Below, piece after piece: positions 41,142 through 57,314 of a stretch of DNA of 64,000 nt (positions are counted from its first letter, which is position 1; each line of letters starts with the position of its first letter). The stretch lies in contig NZ_VHSF01000001.1 in NCBI RefSeq assembly GCF_007050985.1, forward strand, positions 1,364,001 to 1,428,000, read 5' to 3'. A program made the translations under genes and the position numbers. Source of the DNA: Christiangramia sabulilitoris. GTDB taxonomy: Bacteria; Bacteroidota; Bacteroidia; Flavobacteriales; Flavobacteriaceae. The notes beneath the pieces were generated by a model. The model saw only the letters and a program-made list of their open reading frames with translations. It had not been told where the DNA came from and ran no database searches.

Positions 41142-43925
41142 TTGAGTAGAATTTACTTTTTTATACAGATCATTTTTTCCGTTTTTGTATCCTTCGGGCA
41201 GGAACTGCCTCCGGTGATAAATTACGGGCCAAATGTATATGCCGGCGGTAATCAAAACTGGATGATCGCCCAGGCAGATAACAATAATCTCTATTTTGCC
41301 AATAGTACCGGCTTACTTGAATATAATGGTGAAAACTGGAATTTATATCCGGTTCCAAATAACTCGATTGTAAGATCTGTTAAAGTTATAGATGAGCGTA
41401 TTTATACCGGAGCTTATATGGAAGCCGGATTCTGGGAGAAAAATGAATTTGGGACCCTGGAATATACCAGCCTCATGTCTTTGTTTGATGGCAAAATTGG
41501 TGACGGAGAACAATTCTGGGAGATAGACTTTCTGGATGGTCTGGTGATTTTCAGAAGTTTTGGAGGAATATACTTTTATAATCAAGAAACCAGTTCTGTT
41601 GTGAAAATGAAGAATCCTGAAGGAAAGCCTGTTTCCGGGATCTTTAAAGTTGAAAACGAACTTTATTTTCAAATAGTAGCCGGCGGTCTTTATAAAGTCA
41701 ATAATGGTTCCTCAACATTGGTTATTCCCTACGAGGCTCTTGGCGACAGGACCATCATGCAATTTTATATAAAGGAGAATGCCTTTTACCTGGTTACCGG
41801 CAAAACAGAATTTTTGGTGTGGGAGAAGGGTAGTATGCTTGAAAATAAAAAACCTGTAAATGCCGAATTAGGGAATCCCACTATTCTGGATGCGATCTAT
41901 TTGCCAAATGGGAAGATGGTATTAGGTACTGTTGGAGAAGGGGTACTGGAATTAAGTGCCGAAGGAGCTATCATAAATAAGTTCAACCAGGAAAATGTAC
42001 TTCTTAATAACACGGTTTTAGATCTCTTTATAGATAAAGAAGATAATCTCTGGGCCGGTCTTGATTATGGTATAAGTATTATCCAGCTTAAATCTTCATT
42101 CAGATCATTTCAGGATAACCGTGGTGAAATTGGGTCTGTTTATGCTTCCTTCAAAAAAGATGGTGATCTATACCTTGGTACTAACCAGGGTCTTTATTAT
42201 CGCAAATCTGGAGATACAAAATTTGAACTCATTCCGGGAACCAATGGCCAGGTATGGTTTATAAATGAAGTGGGAGGAGTCATCCTTTGTGGACAGGATA
42301 GCGGAACTTTTTTAATAAAGGAAAATAAGGCAGAAAAGGTATGTGACCGTTTAGGTACCTGGGTCATTAAAGAATATAAAGAAGGTGTTCTTATACAAGG
42401 TCATTATAATGGTATAAGCTTTTTAAGGCTGACTAACGGGGAACTGGAAGCTTTACCCATGCTTCCCGATTTTCCCCATTCTTCCAAGTTTATTGAAATA
42501 GATGAAGAAGAAAATATCTGGATAAGTAATGAGCACAAGGGAGTATTCAAATTAAGTCTTCAGGAATCTCTTGGAATATCTGATTCTGAAAATTATAAAT
42601 TTACCGGCGAATCGGGGATTACTTCCAGTCTTTTTCAATTTAATGATACCATTTACTACAGTTCAAAGCAGAGCATCTATCAGTTCCGGGAGGATCTAGA
42701 TCAGTTTTCTTCTGAAAACCAGCTTAATAATTTAATTGCCAGTTATGAAAGAGTGTCCGGAAAAATGGTTGGTGAAAATAACAGAGATAAGCTGTGGGGC
42801 TTTGCTGAAGATGGCATCTTTTCAATTCAGAAGGCAAAATTAAACAATGCTTATGATTTAAATTTCATATTCGTTAATCAGGAATTCAGGAATATAGCAA
42901 TAGGTTATGAAAATATTTCGCATCTAAAAGACGATAAATATTTATTAGGTACCGCTAATGGGTACCTTAAATTGAATGACCAGGAAAAAGCTACCCGGGA
43001 AGTGGCTATAAGACTTAATAGAATAGAAGTGAGTGCCCTGGACGCTCCTTTTGAGCCTGTAAAACTGGATGAATTTAAGGAATTTGATTTTGACCATAAC
43101 AACATTAACTTTCATTATAGTGTTCCGGTTCATAATAAATATTTGGAGGCTTTATATAGTTACAGGCTGGTTGGCTTAAGTAACAACTGGAGTACATGGA
43201 GCAGTTTGCCAGAGGCGAATTTTAAAAATCTTGGCTATGGAGACTATGCTTTCGAGGTAAAGGCGAAAGTTGGCCCTGCAGAAACAAATGTAGCAGTTTA
43301 TGAGTTTTCTATTGACAGACCGTTTTATCTGAGTATATGGGCTATCGCGGCTTATGTGATACTATTTGTATTGATCTTGTATGCCGTTCATATTCTAAAC
43401 AGGAGGCATCATCGCAAAACCGTGCAGGAAAATGAGCGTGAACTTAAAATGAAGCATTTACAGGCTGAACAGGAGATCATAAAGTTGAGGAACGATAAAT
43501 TGGAGCAGGAGATGGCTAGTAAGAACCGGGAGCTTGCGGTATCTACGATGAGCCTTATTAGAAAAAACGAATTTCTTACCAATATTAAAGACAAATTAAA
43601 GGATGCCGAGGGTTCGTCTAAAGTAAACTCGGTCATCAAAACTATAGACAAGGATATTAGCGAGGAAGATAACTGGAAATTCTTCAAAAAGGCATTTAGT
43701 AATGCAGACAAGGATTTTTTCCAGAACATCAAACAGAAGCATCCAGAGCTTACATCGAACGACCTGAAATTATGTGCTTACCTAAGACTGAATCTTTCTT
43801 CAAAAGAGATCGCTCCGCTGCTTAATATTTCTGTAAAAAGTGTGGAAATTAAACGATATCGTTTGCGTAAAAAGATGAATTTGGACCGCGAAATCAATCT
43901 TACCGATTATATTCTGGCTCTATAA
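41142..43925 (+). CDS. Membrane-spanning LuxR-type sensor regulator of the glucan locus
   Basis: The 927-residue regulator starts at TTG 41142 (MSRIYFFIQIIFSVFVSFGQ); no ATG gives a signal peptide. The periplasmic part (about 22-640) is a propeller-type sensor with repeats like NNLYFANSTGLLEYNGENW. A Y_Y_Y (triple-tyrosine) domain follows (about 645-725) and a single membrane helix is at about 728-752. The cytoplasmic part has a coiled coil (about 755-800) and a C-terminal LuxR-type helix-turn-helix (SSKEIAPLLNISVKSVEIKRYRLRKK, split across about 887-912). Histidine kinase and receiver domains are absent. Divergence from the flanking gene and adjacency to susC indicate control of the SusCD locus. 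Confidence 0.88.
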   Translation: MSRIYFFIQIIFSVFVSFGQELPPVINYGPNVYAGGNQNWMIAQADNNNLYFANSTGLLEYNGENWNLYPVPNNSIVRSVKVIDERIYTGAYMEAGFWEKNEFGTLEYTSLMSLFDGKIGDGEQFWEIDFLDGLVIFRSFGGIYFYNQETSSVVKMKNPEGKPVSGIFKVENELYFQIVAGGLYKVNNGSSTLVIPYEALGDRTIMQFYIKENAFYLVTGKTEFLVWEKGSMLENKKPVNAELGNPTILDAIYLPNGKMVLGTVGEGVLELSAEGAIINKFNQENVLLNNTVLDLFIDKEDNLWAGLDYGISIIQLKSSFRSFQDNRGEIGSVYASFKKDGDLYLGTNQGLYYRKSGDTKFELIPGTNGQVWFINEVGGVILCGQDSGTFLIKENKAEKVCDRLGTWVIKEYKEGVLIQGHYNGISFLRLTNGELEALPMLPDFPHSSKFIEIDEEENIWISNEHKGVFKLSLQESLGISDSENYKFTGESGITSSLFQFNDTIYYSSKQSIYQFREDLDQFSSENQLNNLIASYERVSGKMVGENNRDKLWGFAEDGIFSIQKAKLNNAYDLNFIFVNQEFRNIAIGYENISHLKDDKYLLGTANGYLKLNDQEKATREVAIRLNRIEVSALDAPFEPVKLDEFKEFDFDHNNINFHYSVPVHNKYLEALYSYRLVGLSNNWSTWSSLPEANFKNLGYGDYAFEVKAKVGPAETNVAVYEFSIDRPFYLSIWAIAAYVILFVLILYAVHILNRRHHRKTVQENERELKMKHLQAEQEIIKLRNDKLEQEMASKNRELAVSTMSLIRKNEFLTNIKDKLKDAEGSSKVNSVIKTIDKDISEEDNWKFFKKAFSNADKDFFQNIKQKHPELTSNDLKLCAYLRLNLSSKEIAPLLNISVKSVEIKRYRLRKKMNLDREINLTDYILAL

Positions 43926-44164: not shown

Positions 44165-47100
44165 ATGAGGAAATTTACCTGTCTTTTGATTGTATTTCTA
44201 AGCGGGTTTTTCGGTGCTTATGCGCAATCGTTTTCGGTTAGCGGATCGGTTACCGATGAAAGCGGAATGCCTTTACTGGGGGTTAACGTAATTGTAAAAG
44301 GAGAGTCGCGCGGTACAACTACCGATTTCGACGGGAATTATACAGTACAGGATATCTCCCCGGGAGATATACTTCAGTTTAGTTATATCGGTTTTGAAAC
44401 CCAGGAGGTTACTGTAAACAATCAGGAACCTATTAATGTAGTATTGAAGACCGATTCAGAATCTCTTGACGAGGTCCTGGTAATTGGATATGGTACTCAA
44501 ACAAAAAAGGAGATCACTGGTGCCGTTAGTGTGGTAGGATCTCAAACAATAGAGGACCTTAACCCGGTTAGGGTGGAACAGGCACTTCAGGGAACTGTGC
44601 CTGGTGTAAACATTACATCAGCTTCAGGATCTCCGGGTAGTGCATCTACCATTAACATCAGGGGAATTAGTACCAATGGTGATAACAGACCATTGATCCT
44701 TGTAGATGGTAACGTAATTGAAGATCTTAGTGTAATTAACCCTAACGATATTGAAAGTATCAATGTCTTAAAGGATGCTACGGCCGGTATATATGGAGTG
44801 CGTGCTGCCAACGGGGTAATCCTGATAACTACAAAATCTGGAACTTTCAATACAGAACTTAAAGTGGATTTTGATGCTTATACAGGTATACAGGAAACCA
44901 CCAGGAAATTACCGGTTCTTAACTCGGTAGAATATGCTGCTATTGTTAATGAAGCTTATGCCGCCGGTGGTGAAAATCCTCCTTTTCCTAATTTCAGAGA
45001 AATAGGGCGTGGCGTAAACTATCAGGATGAAGTCTTTTCTACTGCACCAATATCAGACATGAACCTAAATGTCTCTGGTGGAACAGAAAAGTCAACCTAT
45101 TCTGTAGGTGCCTCCTATTTCAACCAGGATGGTATCGTTGGCTTGAGTAAAGCCAATTATAACAGATTAACTGCAAGACTTAATTATAATCTCGAAATTT
45201 TAGATAACCTTAAACTTAATGTTTCAGGGATCTACACCAATACGAATAGAAGAACCTTAGCCGAAAATGCTTTAGGTTCGGTTCTATTCAACGCGGTGAA
45301 TATGAATCCTACCCTGCCTATCTTTGATGAGAACGGTGAATTTACTTTAGCCGAAGGATTAGGGAATGAGGTAATTAACCCGCTCGCTCAAATAGAGAAT
45401 ACTTATAATGATACCGAGATCAACAAAATAAGTGGTGTTGGTGGATTAGAATATACCTTATGGGATAAGCTTTCGGCAAAAACACAATTCCAGTTTAACT
45501 ATTCTGAAGTGGACGGTAGATTTTTCTCTCCCGAAGTATTTTACGGATCGGGAAAGGTTTTTAACGTAGACAGGAATAGTGTTACCGAAAATTTTGACAT
45601 TTATCGGGATTATACCTGGGATAACTATTTAACTTATGACGACAGTTTTGGTGATCATAATATAAAGTACCTTTTAGGTATGTCTGTCTTTAAGACTACC
45701 GGGGATCTTTCTTCTTTCACCGGGTTTGAATTGCCAACGAACGAATACTCTGCAGCAAGCATTGCCAATGCAGCAGAAGTTCAGGACAACTATCAAAACG
45801 GAGGAAATACATTCGACTCAAGGCTGCTTTCTTATTTCAGTAGATTGCAGTATGATTACCGCGGGAAATATTTATTCTCTGGGTTAATTAGACGTGATGG
45901 TTCTACTGCCTTTGGTCCTGAAAATAAATTTGGTTGGTTCCCGTCTGCTTCTGTAGGTTGGGTAATCTCTGATGAGAATTTCCTTAGAGACAGTGATTTC
46001 CTTAGCTTTTTAAAACTACGTGGTAGTTACGGTATTATAGGGAATGACAGGATTCCGGCATTTAGATTTACTTCTTTGCTTAATGGAGAAGGAACATATG
46101 TTTTTGATAACGAACTTGTTTTTGGTAAGGCCAGTGGAGCTCTTGGAAACCCGGAGATCAAATGGGAAAAACAGAAAACACTCGATATTGGTCTGGATGC
46201 AAGATTCTTGGATTCAAGGGTAGATGTTACCATGGATTACTTCAAGAAGCGAACTGAAGATCTTTTAGTGGTGTCTCAGGTTTCAGGAATTTTAGGAATT
46301 GGAGCACCTGGTGCCGCGCCACCTGTAGTGAATGGTGGTATCGTAGAAAACGAAGGATTTGAATTTTCCATTGGATATAATCAAATGGTAAATGATGATT
46401 TTAAATTTAATATCAATTATAATTTAACTGCTCTTCGCAACGAGGTGCTGTTTGTAGACAGTGAAAATGGCTTTTTAACCGGAGGAGCTTTCGGTATTGG
46501 TCTGGAGCCGCCTTCAAGAATGGAAGCGGGACAGCCACTTGGTTATTTTTATGGCCTTGAAACCAATGGGATCTTTCAGACTCAGGAAGAAGTAAATAAT
46601 GCCGCAGTGCAACCAAATGCAGCTCCCGGAGATCTTCGTTATGTAGATCAAAACGGAGACGGTAAGATAGATACAGAAGACAGGGTGAATATTGGAGATC
46701 CTATTCCAGATTTCACCATGGGTATGAATTTCGGCTTTACGTATAAGAATTTTGATTTTAACGCCTATGCTTTTGCATCTTTAGGTAACGAGATCGTGAG
46801 AAATTATGAGCGTAATCAGCTAAATACGAACAGGACAAATTCTTATTTAGGCAGATGGACAGGTCCTGGAAGTACAGATAGTTTCCCTAGGGTTACTATA
46901 GGTGCTAATTCCAATAACCTGTTTTCAGATTTTTATGTAGAGGATGGTTCATATTTAAGACTACAGAATATTCAGGTTGGTTATAACCTGGATTCAGATA
47001 TGATCGCTGCAACGGGATTGACGAAATTCAGAATATATGCTTCTGTTAATAATGCCTTTACACTTACAGAATATACCGGATACGATCCTTCAGCTTCAAC

Positions 47101-47185
47101 CGGAGCTCCTATTGGAGGTGGTATAGATCAGGGATTTTATCCTGTACCCAGAGTTTATATGTTAGGAATTAATTTGAAATTTTAA
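44165..47185 (+). CDS. SusC-like TonB-dependent outer-membrane transporter
   Basis: The 1006-residue transporter has a signal peptide ending GAYAQ. An N-terminal carboxypeptidase-regulatory-like domain follows (about 25-105: VSGSVTDESGMPLLGVNVIV, GTTTDFDGNYTV), then the TonB-box-like SLDEVLVIGYG and the plug (LQGTVPGVNITSASGSPGSAS, INVLKDATAGIYGVRAANGV). The large barrel ends in VPRVYMLGINLKF. It imports oligosaccharides in partnership with SusD using TonB energy. SusD starts three bases after its stop. Substrate is inferred as beta-glucan from the linked GH16 and GH3 genes. Confidence 0.96.
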   Translation: MRKFTCLLIVFLSGFFGAYAQSFSVSGSVTDESGMPLLGVNVIVKGESRGTTTDFDGNYTVQDISPGDILQFSYIGFETQEVTVNNQEPINVVLKTDSESLDEVLVIGYGTQTKKEITGAVSVVGSQTIEDLNPVRVEQALQGTVPGVNITSASGSPGSASTINIRGISTNGDNRPLILVDGNVIEDLSVINPNDIESINVLKDATAGIYGVRAANGVILITTKSGTFNTELKVDFDAYTGIQETTRKLPVLNSVEYAAIVNEAYAAGGENPPFPNFREIGRGVNYQDEVFSTAPISDMNLNVSGGTEKSTYSVGASYFNQDGIVGLSKANYNRLTARLNYNLEILDNLKLNVSGIYTNTNRRTLAENALGSVLFNAVNMNPTLPIFDENGEFTLAEGLGNEVINPLAQIENTYNDTEINKISGVGGLEYTLWDKLSAKTQFQFNYSEVDGRFFSPEVFYGSGKVFNVDRNSVTENFDIYRDYTWDNYLTYDDSFGDHNIKYLLGMSVFKTTGDLSSFTGFELPTNEYSAASIANAAEVQDNYQNGGNTFDSRLLSYFSRLQYDYRGKYLFSGLIRRDGSTAFGPENKFGWFPSASVGWVISDENFLRDSDFLSFLKLRGSYGIIGNDRIPAFRFTSLLNGEGTYVFDNELVFGKASGALGNPEIKWEKQKTLDIGLDARFLDSRVDVTMDYFKKRTEDLLVVSQVSGILGIGAPGAAPPVVNGGIVENEGFEFSIGYNQMVNDDFKFNINYNLTALRNEVLFVDSENGFLTGGAFGIGLEPPSRMEAGQPLGYFYGLETNGIFQTQEEVNNAAVQPNAAPGDLRYVDQNGDGKIDTEDRVNIGDPIPDFTMGMNFGFTYKNFDFNAYAFASLGNEIVRNYERNQLNTNRTNSYLGRWTGPGSTDSFPRVTIGANSNNLFSDFYVEDGSYLRLQNIQVGYNLDSDMIAATGLTKFRIYASVNNAFTLTEYTGYDPSASTGAPIGGGIDQGFYPVPRVYMLGINLKF

Positions 47186-47188
47186 TAA

Positions 47189-48667
47189 ATGAGAACGAAA
47201 TTATATACAATCAATTGGATCCTTGCTTTTGCCTTTCTGGCACTGGTCGGATGTAGTGATGACTTCGTGGATGTACCTAGTGAGGATGAAAACTCTGAAG
47301 ACTATTTTAACACTCCAGAAGAATATGATCTGGCACTTGTAGGAGCATACGATCTGTTACAAGCGACCTATCTTAATGTAATGCTGGGAGAAATTGCCTC
47401 AGATAACACCCTCGCTGGTGGAGAGAGTGCTACAGATGTTCCTGGGATTCAGGAAATCGATGATATGGTGCATACGCCGGTAAATGCACAGCTGCGGGAT
47501 ATCTGGAGTTGGATGTTCGCGGGAGTGAATCGTGCGAATTATGTTTTGGAATTCCAGGATAATATAGATTTTGCCGGAAAGAACGAGATCATTGCCCAGG
47601 CAAGGTTCCTGAGAGCCTATTACTATTTTGAACTGGTAAAATGGTTTGGAGATGTGCCATTGGCAATTGATAGCAGAATCCAGTTTGGTGATCAATTCGA
47701 TATTCCAAGAGCACCAAAATCTGAGGTATATGCTCTAATTGAGCAGGACCTGATGTTCGCTGCGGCGAATTTACCTGCAACGCAGGCTGAGAAAGGAAGA
47801 ATTACCTCCGGAGCTGCTCAGGCATTGCTTGGTAAGGCTTATTTATATCAGAATAAATTTGGTGAGGCGGCTTCAGCTTTCGAACCGGTGATCAACGGGC
47901 CATACAGCCTGGTGGAAGATTATGAATTTATATTCGAACCAGAAGGTGAGAATAATGCCGAATCTATTTTTGAAGTTCAGTATACCGATAAAGAAGGTGC
48001 TGGCTTCGGATGTCTGCAGTGTAGTGAAGGTAACGTAGCTGTAGGATTTAACGGAGTACGTAATATTTCTTACCCTCCAAACTTTGAAGGTGGGTTTGAT
48101 TCCGGGTTTAGTTTTAATGTTCCGGTTCAGGAAGTAGTAGACCTGTTTACAGAAGATGACATTAGAAAAGATGTTGCGATCCTGGATATTGAAGCCCACG
48201 CGGCAGAAACCGGAGCAACTTATGCTACAGGGTTTGAACATACCGGATATTTCAATAGAAAATATATCGCCAGAAGAGGTGATCTTAATACGGGAGATGC
48301 CAATCTTACCAATCCGAATAACTACCGGGCTATACGCTTAGCAGATGTTCTGTTGATGGCTGCTGAGGCTAACTTTAAAAAATCGGCGGCAGATGAAGAC
48401 AAGGCCAGAGCTTATTTGAACCTTGTAAGAGAACGTGCAGAACTTGATCCGGTTACTTTATCTGGAAATGCTCTTCTGGAGCAGATCTACGAAGATCGTC
48501 GCCTGGAACTGGTAGGGGAAGGACACAGATTCTTTGACCTTGTGAGAACAGGAAGAGCTGCAGCAGCAATTGATGGTTTCCAGACTGGAAAACACGAATT
48601 GTTCCCTATCCCAGCAATAGAAATTGAACTTGCCGGCAATAACTGGCAACAAAACCCAGGTTACTAA
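47189..48667 (+). CDS. SusD-like surface glycan-binding lipoprotein
   Basis: The 492-residue RagB/SusD lipoprotein has a signal ending ALVGC (Cys22) and sits on the outer surface as the lid of the SusC transporter. Helical TPR-like parts include EIIAQARFLRAYYYFELVKWFGDVPL, split by the ligand loops, and a C-terminal RadB/SusD end with LEQIYEDRRLELVGEGHRFFDLVRTG and LFPIPAIEIE. All SusD hallmarks are present and the length is typical. It is translated directly after SusC with a three-base gap. Confidence 0.95.
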   Translation: MRTKLYTINWILAFAFLALVGCSDDFVDVPSEDENSEDYFNTPEEYDLALVGAYDLLQATYLNVMLGEIASDNTLAGGESATDVPGIQEIDDMVHTPVNAQLRDIWSWMFAGVNRANYVLEFQDNIDFAGKNEIIAQARFLRAYYYFELVKWFGDVPLAIDSRIQFGDQFDIPRAPKSEVYALIEQDLMFAAANLPATQAEKGRITSGAAQALLGKAYLYQNKFGEAASAFEPVINGPYSLVEDYEFIFEPEGENNAESIFEVQYTDKEGAGFGCLQCSEGNVAVGFNGVRNISYPPNFEGGFDSGFSFNVPVQEVVDLFTEDDIRKDVAILDIEAHAAETGATYATGFEHTGYFNRKYIARRGDLNTGDANLTNPNNYRAIRLADVLLMAAEANFKKSAADEDKARAYLNLVRERAELDPVTLSGNALLEQIYEDRRLELVGEGHRFFDLVRTGRAAAAIDGFQTGKHELFPIPAIEIELAGNNWQQNPGY

Positions 48668-48690: not shown

Positions 48691-51375
48691 ATGAAAATAT
48701 TCAAATTCTTAGCAATGCTTACCATCTCGGTGCTGTTCTTTACAGGATGCGAAGATGAAGAAATTACTAATTACGCCTTCCAGGAGATCTCTGCTCCCAC
48801 AAACGTTTCTGCTATTTTTGATGTTTCGCAGGACGATACAGGAACAGTAACTATCACCCCTAGCGGTGAGGGCGCACAGGTTTTTCAGGTCGATCTTGGA
48901 AATGGAGAGACAGCAGAACTTGCGGCAGGCGAGTCTGTGACCACTGCCTATGCAGAAGGAGAGTACATGGTAAAGATCGTAGCTGTAGGATCTACGGGTC
49001 TTACCAGTGAATACAATCAAATGCTGAATATTTCTTTCAAGGCTCCAGAAAATCTTGAAATTATTATAGATCAGCCTGCTTCAAATCCAAAATTAATTAC
49101 CGTTTCTGCCACTGCAGATAATGCTACGGTATTCGATGTGTACTTTGGAGATGTTGATGATGAAGAGCCTACACAATTGATGCCTGGAGAAAGCGTTCAG
49201 CATACTTATGCGCCGGGAGTTTATGAAATTACCGTTGTAGCAAGAGGTGCTGGTGCTGCTACTGCCGAGGAAGATGCTATTGTTATTATTCCTGAAGCTA
49301 CAGACCCACTAAAATTACCTATCACTTACGATATGGGGACTGTGAACTATGCAGCAGATGTATTTGGAGGAACCAGTTATGAAATAGTTGTAAATCCAGA
49401 TCTTTCTGGAGCTAATACTACCGAGTCTAATGTAGCAGCAGTAACAAATTCCGGGGCAAACTGGGAAGGTATAGTATATACCCTTGGGGAACCTGTAGAT
49501 TTTAGTGGTGACGATAAGATCATAACCATGAAAGTATGGTCTGATGTTGCTCAGCCTGTATTACTGAAGTTCGAAGGTGGTGTAAATGATGAAAGACAAA
49601 CAGAAGTTGTGGCCAATCACGGTGGGACCGGATGGGAAGAACTTAGTTTCAATTTTGCCACAGATGCGGTTAAAAGCTTCATAGACGGCAACCAGGGTGT
49701 TGGTGAACCGTTTGTTCCAACAGGACAATATGCTGCGATGGTTATCTTTTTTGATGGTCCTGGTACAACAGCAGGTACTTTCTATATCGATGATATCATG
49801 CAGGAGTCAACGGCACCAGACTGTGTGGCTGAAACTACAGAAAATATAGATGCCGCTAATGGCCCTATTAACTGGACATTTAAAACTGATGATGACGAAG
49901 ATTTCGATTTTAATCCATTTGGGAATATCGAATCAGAGATTGTTAGAAATCCAAAAACAGATGGTATTAACAACAGCTGTAACGTTCAAAGAGTAATAAA
50001 GACTCCTGGTTGCGAAACCTGGTCTGGTGTTGGAACTGAAATTCCTACAGCTATAGACTTTACTACAACAGACAAGAAGATATTCAAGCTAAAAGTTCTT
50101 GCAGAAACACAAACTGCAGAAGTTACTTTAAGACTTGAAAGAGAACCGTTCCCAGATGTAGACCCTGCAGAAGACAGAGTAGCACAAATTACTGAAACCG
50201 GAGTTTGGCAGGAATTAACTTTCGATTTCTCTGATGTTGATGATAAGACTTTCAGGAGTATAATCATCTACTTTGAGAGAGATGCCTCATGTGATGGTGA
50301 TGTATATTATTTCGATGATCTTATCCAGACAGATGGTACAGGTGGAGGAACTCCTCCTGCCTCTACTACTACCAGCTTCCCGGTAGATTTTGAAACTGCT
50401 TCTAATGGCGGTGCTTCTGCCAATTGGACTGTATTTGAAAATGTGGATAACCCTGCATTAGAGATCATTGCAAACCCTGATATGACCGGAAATGCTTCTG
50501 CTACGGTAGCTAAGTTTACCGCGAGACAGGATGGCCAGCCTTTCGCAGGTACTATCACTCAATTAACAAATCCATTTACTCTGGATGCATCTAATGCTAT
50601 TGTGAAGATGTGGGTTTGGAAATCTAAGATCAGTGATGTAGGGATCAAATTTGAGAACGCTACTCAGGGATCAACCGGTGAGATCAAAGTTGCCAATACA
50701 AAGGTGAACGAATGGGAGGAACTTACTTTTGATTTCTCAGGAGTGATTGGAGATCCTAACAATACAAATATTACAGGTCTGGTAATATTCCCGGACTTTG
50801 AGGACAGAGCGGCAGAATCTGTGTCTTATTTTGATAATATTACTTTAAATTCCACAACCGGAGGAGGTTCTGGTGGTGGAGATCCGGTTGTGGCTACCAG
50901 CTTACCTATAGATTTTGAATCTAATGAAACCTTACAGGGTGTATTCGAATCATCACAGGGAGTTACTGGTATGCCGGTTTCGAACCCGGATATGACGGGA
51001 AATAATTCCAGTACGGTGTATGAGTTTAATAAAGCAAATAATGCAGCATGGTATTCTGGGATCTTCCATATTTTCCCAAATAATATTGACCTTTCGCAGG
51101 GAACTACGTTCTCAATTAAAGTATGGTCACCAAAGGCCAATGTGAATGTAAGATTCCAGTTAGAACTTGAAGGTTCAGATGCAAGTCCAAATATTTCCGT
51201 AGATCAAACAGTGACTCAGGCAAATACCTGGGTTACCCTAACGTATGATTTTGCAGGAATTATTGACACAAACAATAATTACGATAAATTCGTGATATTC
51301 CCGGATTATGACGACGTAGCACAGGCACCAGCCGATGGTTCAGTTTACTACATCGATGATATCGAACAGAATTAG
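48691..51375 (+). CDS. Surface lipoprotein with two PKD-like and four related beta-sandwich modules
   Basis: The 894-residue lipoprotein has a signal ending FFTGC (Cys20). Residues 33-112 and 115-200 are two PKD/Ig-like domains (QVDLGNGETAELAAGES, DVYFGDVDDEEPTQLMPGES). Four related modules follow at about 205-372, 373-550, 556-722 and 734-894. Each ends in the same pattern: W-E/Q-E-L-T/S-F-D/N-F, then a V/I-I-F/Y-F/P stretch, then Y-Y/F-x-D-D/N-I. Gly-rich linkers (TGGGTPP, TTGGGSGGGDP) separate the last three. The modules look like carbohydrate-binding beta-sandwiches. No enzyme motif is seen. Its place third behind SusCD fits a surface glycan-binding protein of the SusE/F type that grips the glucan. 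It is 12 bp from the next gene. Confidence 0.85.
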   Translation: MKIFKFLAMLTISVLFFTGCEDEEITNYAFQEISAPTNVSAIFDVSQDDTGTVTITPSGEGAQVFQVDLGNGETAELAAGESVTTAYAEGEYMVKIVAVGSTGLTSEYNQMLNISFKAPENLEIIIDQPASNPKLITVSATADNATVFDVYFGDVDDEEPTQLMPGESVQHTYAPGVYEITVVARGAGAATAEEDAIVIIPEATDPLKLPITYDMGTVNYAADVFGGTSYEIVVNPDLSGANTTESNVAAVTNSGANWEGIVYTLGEPVDFSGDDKIITMKVWSDVAQPVLLKFEGGVNDERQTEVVANHGGTGWEELSFNFATDAVKSFIDGNQGVGEPFVPTGQYAAMVIFFDGPGTTAGTFYIDDIMQESTAPDCVAETTENIDAANGPINWTFKTDDDEDFDFNPFGNIESEIVRNPKTDGINNSCNVQRVIKTPGCETWSGVGTEIPTAIDFTTTDKKIFKLKVLAETQTAEVTLRLEREPFPDVDPAEDRVAQITETGVWQELTFDFSDVDDKTFRSIIIYFERDASCDGDVYYFDDLIQTDGTGGGTPPASTTTSFPVDFETASNGGASANWTVFENVDNPALEIIANPDMTGNASATVAKFTARQDGQPFAGTITQLTNPFTLDASNAIVKMWVWKSKISDVGIKFENATQGSTGEIKVANTKVNEWEELTFDFSGVIGDPNNTNITGLVIFPDFEDRAAESVSYFDNITLNSTTGGGSGGGDPVVATSLPIDFESNETLQGVFESSQGVTGMPVSNPDMTGNNSSTVYEFNKANNAAWYSGIFHIFPNNIDLSQGTTFSIKVWSPKANVNVRFQLELEGSDASPNISVDQTVTQANTWVTLTYDFAGIIDTNNNYDKFVIFPDYDDVAQAPADGSVYYIDDIEQN

Positions 51376-51387
51376 AAAAATTAAACT

Positions 51388-53046
51388 ATGAGATATTTTA
51401 AATTAATTTTTAGCTTATTAGCGGTTAGTTTGCTGCTTTCCAGCTGCCAGGAGGATGACCTCGAGCTGGGTACCATTCTGGTCCCAACTAACCTTACTAT
51501 TAATAGCAATATTAGTGACGATGGTTCAGGAGTGGTTGAATTTACAGCATCTGCAGATAATGCTATTACCTACGAATATAACTTTAGTGATGGTACCTCG
51601 GCAGTTGCTGCCGGCGGTACTTTTACCAAGCGTTTTACCCGTGTTGGTTTAAACACCTATCTGGTTACTGTTGTAGCCTACGGTAAAGGTGGCGTGAGTA
51701 GTTCCAGGACTATAGAAATTGAAGTTAGAAGTGATTTCGACGATCCTGAAACCAAGCAATTCCTTACCGGTGGTTCTTCAAAGACCTGGTACATTGCTTC
51801 ACAGGTAGGCGGTCATTTAGGAGTTGGACAGAATATTGATGACGATGGTAATGCTATCGTAGACGGTGGTGCCTTTTTCCAGGGACCTCCGGGATTTGGT
51901 CCAGATTGTTTCTACGATGACCAGATAATCTTTAGCCTTGATGCTAACGATAACCTAACTTATGACTATAATGATTTTGATGCTTCTTTTGTAAACTGGC
52001 AATATACCACCCAGTTTGGTGGGAATGGAGAACAATTTGTAGATGAGTGTCTGGATACAGATGTTGCAGATGGGAGTGTGCCGGCACAATTAGTGCCTTC
52101 AAGCGCCGGTATTTCTGAAGATGTATCAACGGGTACTGTTATCGAACTTCCGGCCGATTCATTTATTAGCTACTACATTGGTCAGAATCAATACGAGGTA
52201 CTATCGATAGATGAAAACAGTATGTACCTGCGTGCCGTACAGGCTAATGATACATTCCTTGTATGGTACCTAATCTTAACTACTTCTCCTGATGGAAGTA
52301 TTGGTGGCGGAGGTGGAGAACCCGATCCCGGATTCGAATCTCAGTTTACTACAGAGATCTGGGCAGATGAATTTGATGGGGATGCTCTTGATACAGATAA
52401 CTGGCAATACGCCATTGGTGACGGTTGTCCCGACCTTTGCGGCTGGGGTAACGGTGAAGCACAGTACTATACTGATTCTGAGGAAAATGTAAAAGTAGAG
52501 AACGGTAATCTTGTGATCACTGCGAAAAGACAGGCTATGGAAGGTAAAGACTTCACTTCTGCCAGGATCTTCACAAAAGATAAAGTAGAATTCACGTATG
52601 GTCGTGTAGAAGTTAGAGCAAAACTTCCTGCCGGAGGTGGAACCTGGCCTGCAATCTGGATGCTCGGTGCCGAATGGCCTGAAGAAGCATGGCCTGGAGT
52701 AGGTGAGATGGATATTATGGAATTTGCCGGTAACAGGCCAAATGTAGTTTCATCTGCACTTCATTTTCCTGGAAATTCCGGTGGGAACCCAATAATGGGT
52801 GAAACCACAGTAGGCGATGTAACTTCAGAATTTCATATCTACGAGGTAGAATGGACTGCAGATAAGATCACATTTTTAATGGATGGTGAACCGCATTTGG
52901 AATTTGATAATGATGATTCCACACCTTTCCAGGATGACTTTTTTATATTATTAAATGTAGCCATGGGAGGATCTTTTGGCGGAGCTATAGCCGATGATTT
53001 CCAGGAGTCATCGATGGAAGTAGATTACGTGAGAGTATTTCAATAA
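51388..53046 (+). CDS. PKD-GH16 endo-beta-1,3-glucanase lipoprotein
   Basis: The 552-residue lipoprotein has a signal ending LLLSSC (Cys20). A PKD-like domain (about 30-112: YEYNFSDGTSAVAAGGTF) is followed by an uncharacterised module (about 118-305, beginning LTGGSSKTWYIAS) and a GH16 domain (about 325-552). The catalytic ExDxxE is GEMDIMEF with Glu440, Asp442 and Glu445. The aromatic loop DGCPDLCGWGNGEAQYY is shared with the third GH16 and is typical of laminarinases. As a surface lipoprotein it probably makes the first cuts in beta-1,3-glucan chains for import by SusCD. Confidence 0.94.
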   Translation: MRYFKLIFSLLAVSLLLSSCQEDDLELGTILVPTNLTINSNISDDGSGVVEFTASADNAITYEYNFSDGTSAVAAGGTFTKRFTRVGLNTYLVTVVAYGKGGVSSSRTIEIEVRSDFDDPETKQFLTGGSSKTWYIASQVGGHLGVGQNIDDDGNAIVDGGAFFQGPPGFGPDCFYDDQIIFSLDANDNLTYDYNDFDASFVNWQYTTQFGGNGEQFVDECLDTDVADGSVPAQLVPSSAGISEDVSTGTVIELPADSFISYYIGQNQYEVLSIDENSMYLRAVQANDTFLVWYLILTTSPDGSIGGGGGEPDPGFESQFTTEIWADEFDGDALDTDNWQYAIGDGCPDLCGWGNGEAQYYTDSEENVKVENGNLVITAKRQAMEGKDFTSARIFTKDKVEFTYGRVEVRAKLPAGGGTWPAIWMLGAEWPEEAWPGVGEMDIMEFAGNRPNVVSSALHFPGNSGGNPIMGETTVGDVTSEFHIYEVEWTADKITFLMDGEPHLEFDNDDSTPFQDDFFILLNVAMGGSFGGAIADDFQESSMEVDYVRVFQ

Positions 53047-53095: not shown

Positions 53096-53181
53096 TATAA
53101 AGAATTATTGACTCAGTCCTGGGGTCTTGAGATTAAGTATTTCTCAGGAACAGGATAATGTTACTTTTAAAAATAATAGAT

Positions 53182-54057
53182 ATGAGACACCGCTTCTTAA
53201 AAACCTTTATGTCACTGGCGTTGATTTGTAGTTGCAATTTATTCGCCCAGGACTCATTTGTAAACAAGGAACCGGATACTCTATTCTTTGATGATTTTTC
53301 CGGGAATTCCCTTGATCGGGAAAAGTGGAACGTTATTGGACCCGATTTTTGGGTTAATAATGAGCAGCAGATCTACGTGGATTCCACCGCAACCATTTTC
53401 ATAGCGAAAGGTGATTCTGCCAAGGGAGCAGAAAATGCACTTGTACTAAAAGCTCACTACAGTCCGGATTATATCACATTTCGTGGAAATCAATTTGACT
53501 TTATTTCGGGAAGGATAGACACCCGGGACAAAGTGATGTTTACCTATGGGACGGCTTCGGCCAGGATGAAACTACCGGAAGGCAACGGCTACTGGCCTGC
53601 ATTCTGGGCTCTCGGTGGGGGTAATTGGCCTGAAACCGGGGAGATAGATATCATGGAATATGTGGGTGAAACAGATTGGATAGGGGTTGCCCTGCACGGT
53701 CCGGGGTACTCCGGAGAAACCCCGCTGGTGAATAAGTATTTTTTTCCTGAAAATGAAGATGTGACCAGCTGGCATATTTATTCAGTAGACTGGTCACCAC
53801 AGGGTTTTGATTTTAAGGTTGATGGCAGGTTGATCTACCGGGTGACCAAACCAATGGTAGAGCATTATGGAAAATGGGCTTATGATAACCCAAAATTCCT
53901 CATCCTCAATTTTGCCCTGGGTGGTGCATACCCATTTAAAACCAATGGAGTTCGAAAACCTTATAACGGTCTGCCTGAAGCTACAGTAGAGCTAATAAAA
54001 GAAGGCAAAGCCGAAGTGCTTATCGATTGGGTTTTAATAAGTAAAAAAGATAATTAA
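53182..54057 (+). CDS. GH16 glycoside hydrolase, divergent second copy
   Basis: The product has 291 residues from ATG 53182 (MRHRFLKTFMSLALICSC), with a signal peptide ending LFAQ. An upstream ATG at 53158 would add eight residues and is less likely. The GH16 catalytic site is GEIDIMEY with Glu154, Asp156 and Glu159. The fold is marked by DDFSGNSLDREKWNV, WPAFWALGGGNWPETGE and FLILNFALGGAYPF. Unlike the other two GH16 enzymes of the locus it lacks the DGCP-LCGWGN loop, so it may prefer another linkage, such as mixed-linkage or branched glucan. It is in the downstream part of the locus. Confidence 0.92.
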   Translation: MRHRFLKTFMSLALICSCNLFAQDSFVNKEPDTLFFDDFSGNSLDREKWNVIGPDFWVNNEQQIYVDSTATIFIAKGDSAKGAENALVLKAHYSPDYITFRGNQFDFISGRIDTRDKVMFTYGTASARMKLPEGNGYWPAFWALGGGNWPETGEIDIMEYVGETDWIGVALHGPGYSGETPLVNKYFFPENEDVTSWHIYSVDWSPQGFDFKVDGRLIYRVTKPMVEHYGKWAYDNPKFLILNFALGGAYPFKTNGVRKPYNGLPEATVELIKEGKAEVLIDWVLISKKDN

Positions 54058-54252: not shown

Positions 54253-56526
54253 ATGAAAAAATATTTATTAATAACGACACTTTGCCTGGGAAGCTTTTCT
54301 TTCTACGGCCAGCAATCAGGGATTAAAAGTTCTGTTCAGGAGGTAGAAAAAAAGGTGGATTCAGTTTTAAACCTGATGACCCTTGAGGAAAAAGTTGGGC
54401 AAATGATCCAGTATAATGGTAGCTGGGACTTAACCGGTCCGGCTTCTGAAACTGGAAATAAAGAAAAAGAAGAAAGACTTAAAAAAGGCCTTGTTGGTTC
54501 CATGCTCAACGTTCTTTCTGTAGAAGCTACAGAAAAAGCACAGCGTTTAAACATGGAAAATTCCAGGATCAAAATTCCACTCATTTTTGGTTATGATGTG
54601 ATACATGGTTACAACACTATCTTTCCGGTCCCTTTGGGGGAAACTGCCAGCTGGGATATGGAAGCGGCACAGGAATCTGCACGTATAGCTGCTCTCGAGT
54701 CTGCAGCACAGGGTGTGAACTGGACCTTCTCGCCCATGATTGATATTTCCAGGGATGCCCGTTGGGGCAGGATCATGGAAGGATCGGGTGAAGACCCTTA
54801 TTTAACCGCAAAAGTAGCTGTAGCGAAAGTAAAAGGTTACCAGGGAGATGATCTTTCAGATCCACAATCCATAGCTGCCACCGCGAAACATTTTGCCGGT
54901 TATGGTCTAGCTGAAGGCGGTAAAGACTATAATTCTGTACACATCGGTGAGAACGAACTGCGCAATGTTGTACTTCCTCCATTCAAGGCTGCCGCAGATG
55001 CCGGGGTGGCAACTTTTATGAATAGTTTCAATACCATAGACGGAATTCCGGCGACCGGTAGTGAATATCTGCAAAGAGAAATTCTTAAAGGAGAATGGGA
55101 CTGGCAGGGGTTTGTGGTTTCAGACTGGGGTTCTATCTCTGAAATGATCCCGCATGGATTTGCACGAGACAAAGTTCACGCGGCAGAGATCGCGGTTACT
55201 GCCGGGAGCGATATGGATATGGAAGGCGGTGCTTACCAGGCGGGTCTTGAGCAACTGGTAGAAGAAGGGAAAATTGACGAAAGTCTTATCGACGAAGCTG
55301 TAAAAAGAGTACTTCGAGTAAAATTCAAATTAGGTCTTTTTGAAGATCCTTATCGTTATAATAACCCGGAGCTGGCAAGTGAAATACCATTTGCTGAGCA
55401 CCGGAAGACGGCGAGAGATATCGCTAAAAAATCTATTGTTCTTTTAAAGAACGAAAAAGGTCTTCTACCACTAAAATCTTCAGTAAAAAGTATCGCGGTG
55501 ATCGGGCCACTGGCAGATGACAAGGATACTCCTATTGGGAACTGGAGAGCACAGGGGGAAGCTAATTCTGCTGTCTCTGTTGTAGAAGGTTTGAAAAATG
55601 CTGATATAAATGCAGAGATCACTTATGCCAAAGGGGTAACCCTTGGCGAAGGTGAACGTAGTTTCCTGATGCCATTGAAGATCAATAAAACCGATACAAC
55701 AGGAATCTCTGATGCTGTTGAAAAAGCAAGGAAAGCCGAACTTGTTATAATGGTTCTGGGAGAGGATGCTTTCCAGTCTGGGGAAGGTCGCAGCCAGGTA
55801 AATATTGGTCTGGCCGGTTTGCAGATGGAACTATTGAAGGAAGTCCAAAAAGTAAATAAGAATATTGTTCTGGTGCTAATGAATGGAAGACCGGTGGAGA
55901 TCACCTGGGCTGCTGAAAATGTTCCTGCAATTGTAGAAGCATGGCAGCTGGGAACTGAAAGCGGGAATGCCATTGCAGATGTGTTAACCGGGGATTATAA
56001 TCCTTCGGGAAAACTGCCGGTATCATTTCCAAGAGCAGTGGGACAGGAGCCTTTGTACTATAACCGTATGAATACCGGGAGACCTTCTAATGATCAGCAC
56101 GTTACTTACTCGCATTATACAGATATTACCAATGGGCCACTTTATCCTTTTGGATATGGACTTAGCTATACCACTTTCGATTACGGAGATGTAAGTCTTT
56201 CGGCTTCTGAATTATCTTCCGGAGGATTACTTACTTTAAGTGTGCCGGTAACTAATTCTGGTAGCGTAAAGGGTAAAGAAGTAGTTCAGCTATATATGCA
56301 TGATCTTGTGGCTAGTGTCGCCAGGCCAATAAAAGAATTAAAAGGTTTCGAGCTGGTTGAATTGAACCCCGGGGAAACTAAAACTGTAGAATTCAGCATT
56401 GATGAAGAAATGTTAAAATTTTATACTGCTTCTGGTAAATGGGAAGCAGAACCGGGAGAGTTTGAATTAATGGTAGGAGGTAATTCAGTAGACGTGAAAA
56501 CCGTAAAATTTGATTATAAAAAGTAA
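54253..56526 (+). CDS. GH3 beta-glucosidase (BglX-like)
   Basis: The 757-residue periplasmic enzyme has a signal peptide ending FYGQ. The N-terminal GH3 barrel has NWTFSPMIDISRDARWGRIMEG, KHFAGYG and the nucleophile motif FVVSDWGSI (Asp291). The GH3 C-terminal domain (KSIVLLKNEKGLLPL, EDAFQSGEGRSQVN with the likely acid/base Glu) and a fibronectin type III-like domain close the chain (TNSGSVKGKEVVQLYMHD). It removes terminal glucose from imported oligosaccharides. Its TAA overlaps the ATG of the next GH16 gene by one base. Confidence 0.95.
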   Translation: MKKYLLITTLCLGSFSFYGQQSGIKSSVQEVEKKVDSVLNLMTLEEKVGQMIQYNGSWDLTGPASETGNKEKEERLKKGLVGSMLNVLSVEATEKAQRLNMENSRIKIPLIFGYDVIHGYNTIFPVPLGETASWDMEAAQESARIAALESAAQGVNWTFSPMIDISRDARWGRIMEGSGEDPYLTAKVAVAKVKGYQGDDLSDPQSIAATAKHFAGYGLAEGGKDYNSVHIGENELRNVVLPPFKAAADAGVATFMNSFNTIDGIPATGSEYLQREILKGEWDWQGFVVSDWGSISEMIPHGFARDKVHAAEIAVTAGSDMDMEGGAYQAGLEQLVEEGKIDESLIDEAVKRVLRVKFKLGLFEDPYRYNNPELASEIPFAEHRKTARDIAKKSIVLLKNEKGLLPLKSSVKSIAVIGPLADDKDTPIGNWRAQGEANSAVSVVEGLKNADINAEITYAKGVTLGEGERSFLMPLKINKTDTTGISDAVEKARKAELVIMVLGEDAFQSGEGRSQVNIGLAGLQMELLKEVQKVNKNIVLVLMNGRPVEITWAAENVPAIVEAWQLGTESGNAIADVLTGDYNPSGKLPVSFPRAVGQEPLYYNRMNTGRPSNDQHVTYSHYTDITNGPLYPFGYGLSYTTFDYGDVSLSASELSSGGLLTLSVPVTNSGSVKGKEVVQLYMHDLVASVARPIKELKGFELVELNPGETKTVEFSIDEEMLKFYTASGKWEAEPGEFELMVGGNSVDVKTVKFDYKK

Positions 56527-57314
56527 TGATCAGTTTTTCTAAAATATTATTAACCGGGAGCTTTCTATTAGGCAGTATTTTTTCATTTAATGCTCAGGAA
56601 AAGATCATCTTCGAAGAGGATTTCGACGGAGACAGCCTGGATATGAATGTATGGAATTATGAGGAAGGTGACGGTTGCCCTAACCTTTGTGGCTGGGGAA
56701 ATAATGAAAAACAGATCTACGACCGCAAATATGTGGCGGTAGAAGATGGTAAGCTGGTAATTACTGCCGTTAAAAAGGATGGTAAATATTATTCGGGTAA
56801 GATTAACTCTAAAGATAAAGTCGAATTTACCTACGGCGTCATCGAGGTAAGAGCAAAATTAGCCACTGCCAAAGGTCTCTGGCCGGCGATCTGGATGTTA
56901 GGTTCAGATATTAACGAGGTAGGATGGCCTGCCAGCGGTGAAATCGATATACTGGAATATATTGGCAGGGAACCCGGAATTGTGTTTACATCTTTACATA
57001 CCCCGGCAAGTCACGGTAATACCATAAATACCAAAAAGACTAAGATCGAGGGTATAGAAGAAGGTTACCATGATTTCAAAGCCGTCTGGACTGAAAAATA
57101 TATCGAATTTTTTGTAGACGGCCGGCAGTTGTACAGGTTCACCCCGCAACAGTATAATGAAAGGGATTATCCTTTTAAAAAGAATTTCTATTTCCTGATC
57201 AATATGGCCGTAGGAGGAAATCTTGGTGGTGCAGATATCAATGATAGCGCACTACCCGATAAATTCTATGTAGACTCTATTAGGGTAACCGAGTTACCCC
57301 AAGAATTGCAATAA
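56526..57314 (+). CDS. GH16 endo-beta-glucanase, third copy
   Basis: The 262-residue single-domain GH16 enzyme has a signal peptide ending SFNAQ. The catalytic motif is GEIDILEYIG with Glu139, Asp141 and Glu144. EDFDGDSLDMNVWNYEEGDG and CPNLCGWGNNEKQIYD resemble the PKD-GH16 protein of the same locus, suggesting duplication. Lacking a lipobox it is probably periplasmic, acting on imported oligosaccharides beside the GH3 enzyme to which it is translationally coupled. It is the last gene of the locus, closed by the terminator at 57317. Confidence 0.94.
   Translation: MISFSKILLTGSFLLGSIFSFNAQEKIIFEEDFDGDSLDMNVWNYEEGDGCPNLCGWGNNEKQIYDRKYVAVEDGKLVITAVKKDGKYYSGKINSKDKVEFTYGVIEVRAKLATAKGLWPAIWMLGSDINEVGWPASGEIDILEYIGREPGIVFTSLHTPASHGNTINTKKTKIEGIEEGYHDFKAVWTEKYIEFFVDGRQLYRFTPQQYNERDYPFKKNFYFLINMAVGGNLGGADINDSALPDKFYVDSIRVTELPQELQ

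Follow-up and report, generated by a model that had tools for sequence, protein, structure and literature searches.

A predicted surface lipoprotein with four modules of the CBM X584 branch behind SusD in Christiangramia sabulilitoris

Directly behind SusD in a 64,000-nucleotide stretch of the Christiangramia sabulilitoris genome (NCBI RefSeq GCF_007050985.1, contig NZ_VHSF01000001.1, positions 1,364,001 to 1,428,000 of the forward strand; hereafter, the window), a gene encodes a protein of 894 amino acids with four tandem modules. The first-pass annotation had matched these modules to no named carbohydrate-binding family and had proposed an undescribed binding module. What are these modules, and what would a chain of four of them do beside a SusCD importer? 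In the reading that we regard as quite probable, the protein serves a laminarin utilization locus as its surface glycan-binding protein (SGBP), lipid-anchored and with a stalk and four X584-type modules that would catch beta-1,3-glucan for GH16 and SusCD. Laminarin, a storage sugar of algae for which such gene sets are common in marine bacteria, holds more than one-tenth of the carbon dioxide fixed yearly (as stated in a passage of PMC11345257). Of 53 flavobacterial isolates from the North Sea, 33 had at least one laminarin locus (as stated in a passage of PMC6298971).

The locus and the predicted lipoprotein

The genes of the locus, all on the forward strand, are ordered regulator, SusC, SusD, 894-amino-acid protein, GH16, GH16, GH3, and GH16. 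The sensor/regulator (41142..43925) has Pfam Reg_prop and Y_Y_Y matches above the cut-off and a further match, to a LuxR-type HTH, that narrowly misses it; the gene product would control the polysaccharide utilization locus (PUL). SusC (TonB-dependent transporter; 44165..47185), SusD (47189..48667), the second GH16 (53158..54057), GH3 (54253..56526; passing the cut-off set for the BglX beta-glucosidase model), and the third GH16 (56526..57314) were assigned by profile matches. The first GH16 (51388..53046), assigned by profile and PDB searches, includes a PKD-like domain (below the Pfam cut-off), and its residues 4-294 are similar to the PKD domain protein 7kv5. Laminarin PUL variant A, in which a GH3 has a GH16 on either side, was first described in Gramella forsetii and is upregulated by laminarin (according to the relevant part of PMC6298971). 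This layout is present in the window, with SusC, SusD, and GH3 between GH16 genes; unlike variant A, as the comparison of loci indicated, the window has one additional GH16 (53158-54057). The additional gene is shared with a relative of the same genus (G266; 77% identity) and is absent between the corresponding genes in L033, L034, L035, L036, and L038. The setting is that of a beta-glucan locus of the variant A type, and the view that the position behind SusD fits a glycan-binding protein agrees with it.

As for the first GH16, a passage of PMC11345257 describes a Maribacter GH16_3 of which the N-terminus is laminarin-binding by homology to BfSGBP-B; in the light of this passage and of the similarity to 7kv5, the enzyme at 51388-53046 may carry a glucan-binding part of its own.

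The open reading frame of the 894-amino-acid protein (48691..51375; ATG start, from the list of open reading frames and the translation) begins 23 bases after the SusD gene and occupies the SusE position. By inspection of the translation, a signal peptide (48691..48747) extends up to the lipobox FTGC, of which the Cys is residue 20, and the acidic stretch EDEE follows the Cys, similar to the consensus of the lipoprotein export signal. Bacteroidetes surface lipoproteins are marked by acidic residues near the Cys (as described in a part of PMC5080379). From the lipobox and the acidic export-type signal, the protein is probably a surface lipoprotein, as had been annotated.

Next come two PKD-like domains, N1 (residues 20-117; 48748..49041) and N2 (residues 118-204; 49042..49302), whose mutual homology is clear from phmmer (E = 5e-11) and from shuffling (z = 14.7). 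Pfam PKD matched all 11 rows searched at E ≤ 0.1 (best value for any one of these rows, 8e-7); ten of the rows were N1 or N2 domains from five proteins, and the eleventh was the PKD-like domain in the adjacent GH16. N1 of the window itself scored 15.7 bits against a cut-off of 23.5 bits. The two annotated PKD-like domains were thus recovered, with weak likeness to PKD by Pfam.

Like SusE/SusF and SGBP-B of gut Bacteroides, the protein is a multi-domain lipoprotein encoded directly behind SusD and a predicted glycan binder; unlike them, it has no match to SusE, SusF, or SGBP_B_XBD. The Pfam search of the protein for SusE and SusF gave only TcfC, at E = 0.063, and SGBP_B_XBD matched one of 35 related modules, at E = 0.016. 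SGBP-B of B. thetaiotaomicron (7kwb) was a loose match of the full-length structure model (TM, 0.10 and 0.19).

Kinship of the modules with CBM X584

The remainder of the protein consists of M1 (residues 206-373; 49306..49809), M2 (residues 388-547; 49852..50331), M3 (residues 561-721; 50371..50853), and M4 (residues 736-894; 50896..51372). All six pairs are homologous (phmmer, E from 4e-6 to 7e-20 in a six-sequence database; z from 8.6 to 23.6 with 200 shuffles each), with local identity of 26-39%; four tandem related beta-sandwich modules of low overall identity had been annotated correctly. None of the eight pairs of an N domain and an M module exceeded the best of its own shuffles. Gly-rich linkers are present between M2 and M3 (50332..50370) and between M3 and M4 (50854..50895) and absent between M1 and M2, which is what the annotation had stated for the last three modules. 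The two motifs that it had given for the modules were kept in part. W-x-E-L-x-F-x-F is exact in three of the four (residues 315, 506, and 675), and the fourth has WVTLTYDF at residue 847. The closing pattern Y-Y-x-D-D/N-I is literal in only one of the four (FYIDDI, YYFDDL, SYFDNI, and YYIDDI), and the looser x-Y-I/F-D-D/N-I/L fits all of them. Motifs of this kind are a general trait of the CBM4/9/11/22 beta-sandwich, and would therefore mark the fold rather than the ligand.

When the whole protein was compared with PDB sequences, two matches were obtained up to E = 1: 8qx6, of which the title is 'Novel laminarin-binding CBM X584' (released 2024-09-18), at E = 1.3e-42 over residues 218-371, within M1, and chitinase B (7okr) at E = 0.0075 over residues 775-847, within M4. 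M1 alone matched 8qx6 with phmmer at E = 5e-44, with 77 of 145 aligned residues identical; M1 as an undescribed module is ruled out by this match. M2, M3, and M4 are 24-29% identical to 8qx6 (31/128, 31/131, and 37/129) and are without the stretches conserved in the X584 clade (NGER..EV and FVP.GQY), so that their site and ligand may differ.

For M2 to M4, PDB was searched with profiles built only from M2-, M3-, and M4-type rows, without X584 rows, to keep the test non-circular. With the M3-type (type C) profile, 8qx6 was the sole match up to E = 10 (E = 2.8e-9), and with the M2-type (type D) profile it was the first of four matches (E = 1.6e-5). The M4-type (type B) profile gave six matches up to E = 10, and 8qx6 was not among them. 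In the reverse direction, the X584-clade profile (36 rows) gave E = 9e-13 with M2, 8e-11 with M3, and 8e-9 with M4 (scaled to 177,635 sequences); note that each clade profile includes the window module of its own type, and only such cross-type scores count as tests. The AlphaFold2 model of M4 (mean pLDDT, 94.8), for which the underlying alignment also contained X584-type rows, had 8qx6 as the top PDB fold match with Foldseek (E = 7e-8; TM, 0.71/0.69), followed by matches that include structures of CBM11, CBM16, CBM30, CBM4, and CBM22. The full-length model was poor (mean pLDDT, 69.5; pTM, 0.33), probably because module order differs among the aligned proteins, and in its fold search 8qx6 stood at ranks 4 and 5, behind three loosely aligned Reelin chains (TM, 0.17-0.21); one stretch of 167 columns, taken as M1 from the sequence match, agreed with 8qx6 at 48% identity and a TM of 0.89 by target length. 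The structure comparison that had been proposed as a check therefore led, for the M4 model and for this stretch, to 8qx6.

From the M2- and M3-type profiles, the X584-clade profile, and the M4 fold, all four modules have a beta-sandwich and belong to a single branch around X584. M2 to M4 are, as judged from sequence, recognisable siblings of the X584 module, with the M4-type profile counting against. The claim of a module outside any named family falls accordingly for M1, which lies in the clade of 8qx6. The profile search that the annotation had named as a possible refutation goes largely against an undescribed module, with the reserve that M2 to M4 form separate clades in the tree (see below).

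Other families were compared as well. The modules share the fold of CBM4/9 (Pfam CBM_4_9; e.g., 1gui from laminarinase 16A), and profile A2, which holds X584-type rows, matched 1gui at E = 0.0026. Membership of CBM_4_9 was rejected, with window M4 at 17.3 bits against a cut-off of 25.9 bits; the family matched six of 35 modules at E ≤ 1 (best, 0.00044) and the whole window protein not at all up to E = 1. No NCBIfam family matched the 894-amino-acid protein up to E = 1.

Among open papers, none on 8qx6 or on CBM102-106 was found, and the string X584 matched only titles from other fields. To judge from its title and date, a paper by Zuehlke et al. (2024, Environ Microbiol) probably describes 8qx6. 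Modules like M2 to M4 may already be covered in the X584 paper, and we thus make no claim that they are unpublished.

Given the kinship with a module deposited as laminarin-binding, glucan binding by the protein overall is very likely, and we infer that its ligand would be laminarin and that M2 to M4 would also bind glucan. The protein would be held at the cell surface by its outer-membrane lipid anchor, with N1 and N2 acting as a stalk from which the chain of four X584-type modules would reach outward and catch beta-1,3-glucan. The caught glucan would be kept near a surface GH16 endo-glucanase and the SusCD importer, and the oligosaccharides would be finished by GH3, the order of these events being presumed. 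The ligand range might be wider: it is possible, though we lean against it, that the array binds several beta-glucans, including mixed-linkage beta-1,3/1,4-glucan, with modules specialised for different glucans, an explanation that overlaps the laminarin reading and differs from it in ligand range. The fold neighbours of M4 include CBM11 complexed with a mixed-linkage oligosaccharide, and the modules fall into four distinct clades (see below), both of which favour this wider range; the one solved close relative, 8qx6, was however deposited as laminarin-binding, and the variant A locus has laminarin as its published inducer (PMC6298971, in the part on this variant).

Module types and their order across species

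The module tree comprised 159 rows: the 8qx6 stretch and 158 non-identical modules taken from the fetched loci, those of the window included. Module matches with a domain E ≥ 1e-6 or with too little model coverage were left out beforehand, and 24 identical sequences were dropped from the 182 matches kept. M1 lies in a 36-row clade with 8qx6 (support, 100/96). The clade of M2 has nine rows (100/100), of which the L002 row repeats M2 of the window; that of M3 has 14 rows (100/100), and that of M4 has five (100/95). M2 and M4 join in a 21-row group (94/96); the deeper joins lack resolution and carry long-branch warnings, including one for the M3 clade. The modules were first grouped by hand from the tree into types A (the CBM X584 type; M1), D (M2), C (M3), and B (M4), and the rows of the M2, M3, and M4 clades were then confirmed. 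Each type keeps conserved residues of its own; in type D, three Cys are invariant in six aligned rows. The four modules are accordingly different types, each in its own supported clade, rather than equal copies, which is possibly new. A row of like sites might give the avidity that the annotation had suggested; four distinct types also make a division of labour possible, and the modules may recognise different glucan features instead of repeating one site.

The order of types differs among species. The window has A-D-C-B, and the Gramella/Christiangramia loci L032, L033, and L034 have A-B-C-A. Gramella sp. KN1008 (L036) has A-A-A, and G253 (L055) has A-D-C with two weak partial module matches. 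The same-genus relative G266 (L075) shares with the window 88% identity in SusC, 83-86% in SusD, and 81% in GH3, with its SusC and SusD each represented by two overlapping frames in the assembly, and its three GH16 are 49, 77, and 69% identical to those of the window. Its SusE-position protein keeps N1-N2 (75%) and M1 (80%), and in place of M2 to M4 it has two modules whose identity to any module of the window is only 27-37%. In the counterparts from L032 to L034, M3 is 75-79% and M4 64-65% identical to the window modules, and M1 only 50-57%, which argues against simple fast decay. The distal part seems to change by module exchange rather than by drift.

These comparisons bear on the view that only M1 binds glucan, M2 to M4 being decayed or structural. 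The replacement of M2 to M4 beside a retained N1, N2, and M1 in G266 (75-80%) would suit it, as would the absence of the M1-clade stretches from M2 to M4. Against it, M1 is nearest to the membrane anchor, so that M2 to M4 cannot carry M1 outward; each module type keeps its own conserved residues; M3 is better conserved than M1 in L032 to L034; and modules of the M2 and M3 types occur as stand-alone single-module proteins in glucan loci (see below). We consider this view unlikely, and we retain the reading of four glucan-catching modules.

A tentative extension of it, which we favour less than its negation, is that M2, M3, and M4 represent three further beta-glucan-binding families that are sisters of X584 and differ in the glucan feature that they recognise, be it the chain, an end, or a beta-1,6 branch, so that the protein would be a mosaic reader of which the distal modules are exchanged between species. 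In one protein, a module whose kind has been described as laminarin-binding stands beside sibling modules of three distinct types; if the mosaic reading is true, species would tune their catch of laminarin by swapping the distal modules, with the anchor, first module, transporter, and enzymes staying the same. As a speculation, variable arrays might let several laminarin eaters share one bloom.

Relatives in other loci and genomes

In the own genome (G000), matches of the whole protein were confined to this gene and the PKD-like part of GH16, with no second copy elsewhere, and the module profile gave four matches, all in the 48691-51375 gene (nine of 11 first-look candidates scored). Against SusC, SusD, the three GH16, and GH3 of the window, the four-module profile gave a best E of 0.36, with no significant match. 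The whole protein matched 161 of 299 genomes sampled from the family at E ≤ 0.001 (own genome and PKD-only matches included), and the module profile 78 of 395 genomes sampled from the phylum at E ≤ 1e-8 (own genome included).

With the 8qx6 stretch as the query, a scan of genome contigs led to 11 confirmed loci. The order SusC, SusD, protein of this kind, GH16, and second GH16 is conserved in seven of them, five of which have a detected GH3. In the other four, SusC and SusD were not recognised with the window's proteins: GH16 adjoins a two-module protein in L039, L040, and L041, and nothing was recognised with the window's proteins in L042. In L032, L033, and L034, the nearest loci with the same synteny, the 8qx6 stretch matched the last module of the equivalent protein (84, 82, and 75%), and 8qx6 thus probably comes from the equivalent protein of a Christiangramia-like species. 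Weighed against the laminarin reading are these four loci without SusC/SusD, the M4-type profile that misses 8qx6, and relatives in secreted arrays outside obvious glucan loci.

A further 20 regions were hand-picked from the listed matches, and their content is not a frequency. The number of full-length modules per protein is one to seven overall and two to seven beside recognisable SusC/SusD homologues, where the types vary as well. This variation is unlike a docking surface. SusE is indispensable for the SusCD complex to be established (according to a part of PMC11093988), and the modules could on this model serve mainly to dock the protein on SusCD or on the enzymes rather than to bind glycan; in view of the variable number and types and of the homology to a glycan-binding module, we hold this to be very improbable, and we keep to glucan binding.

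In the hand-picked regions L056, L057, and L058, proteins of 274 residues near GH3 and GH16 each carry a lone M3-type module, and M2-type modules occur alone behind an N-terminal part, adjoining GH16, in L059, L062, and L063, which are loci with GH17 and GH30. GH30 with GH17 is part of the variant B laminarin set (as given in a section of PMC6298971).

Several side observations were made in these regions. In G199 (L061:6588-10859), seven X584-related modules follow one another in the 1424-amino-acid protein encoded behind SusD, beside GH16 and GH3. A 1157-amino-acid protein with no Pfam match at E 0.001 is encoded behind the module-bearing protein in GH16/GH17/GH30 loci (L060:10913-14383 and L062:5973-9443). 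Three module arrays lie outside a recognised SusCD locus: L067:7600-10458, which follows a DNA polymerase IV-like gene and has a type IX secretion tail; L074:8202-10523, with no tail at E 0.001, near an alpha-amylase; and L068:8506-11331. The L067 and L074 arrays exceed the Pfam CBM_35_2 cut-off, and their ligand may therefore not be beta-glucan. In the L056 and L057 loci, which are laminarin-type, a further protein with a type IX tail lies beside the usual lipoprotein and the single-module protein; it has five modules in L056 (4313-7750) and one full-length module, in an apparently split frame, in L057 (11237-13279). In L073 (4967-10052), a GH81 with PKD and a type IX tail directly precedes a two-module protein that also has a type IX tail.
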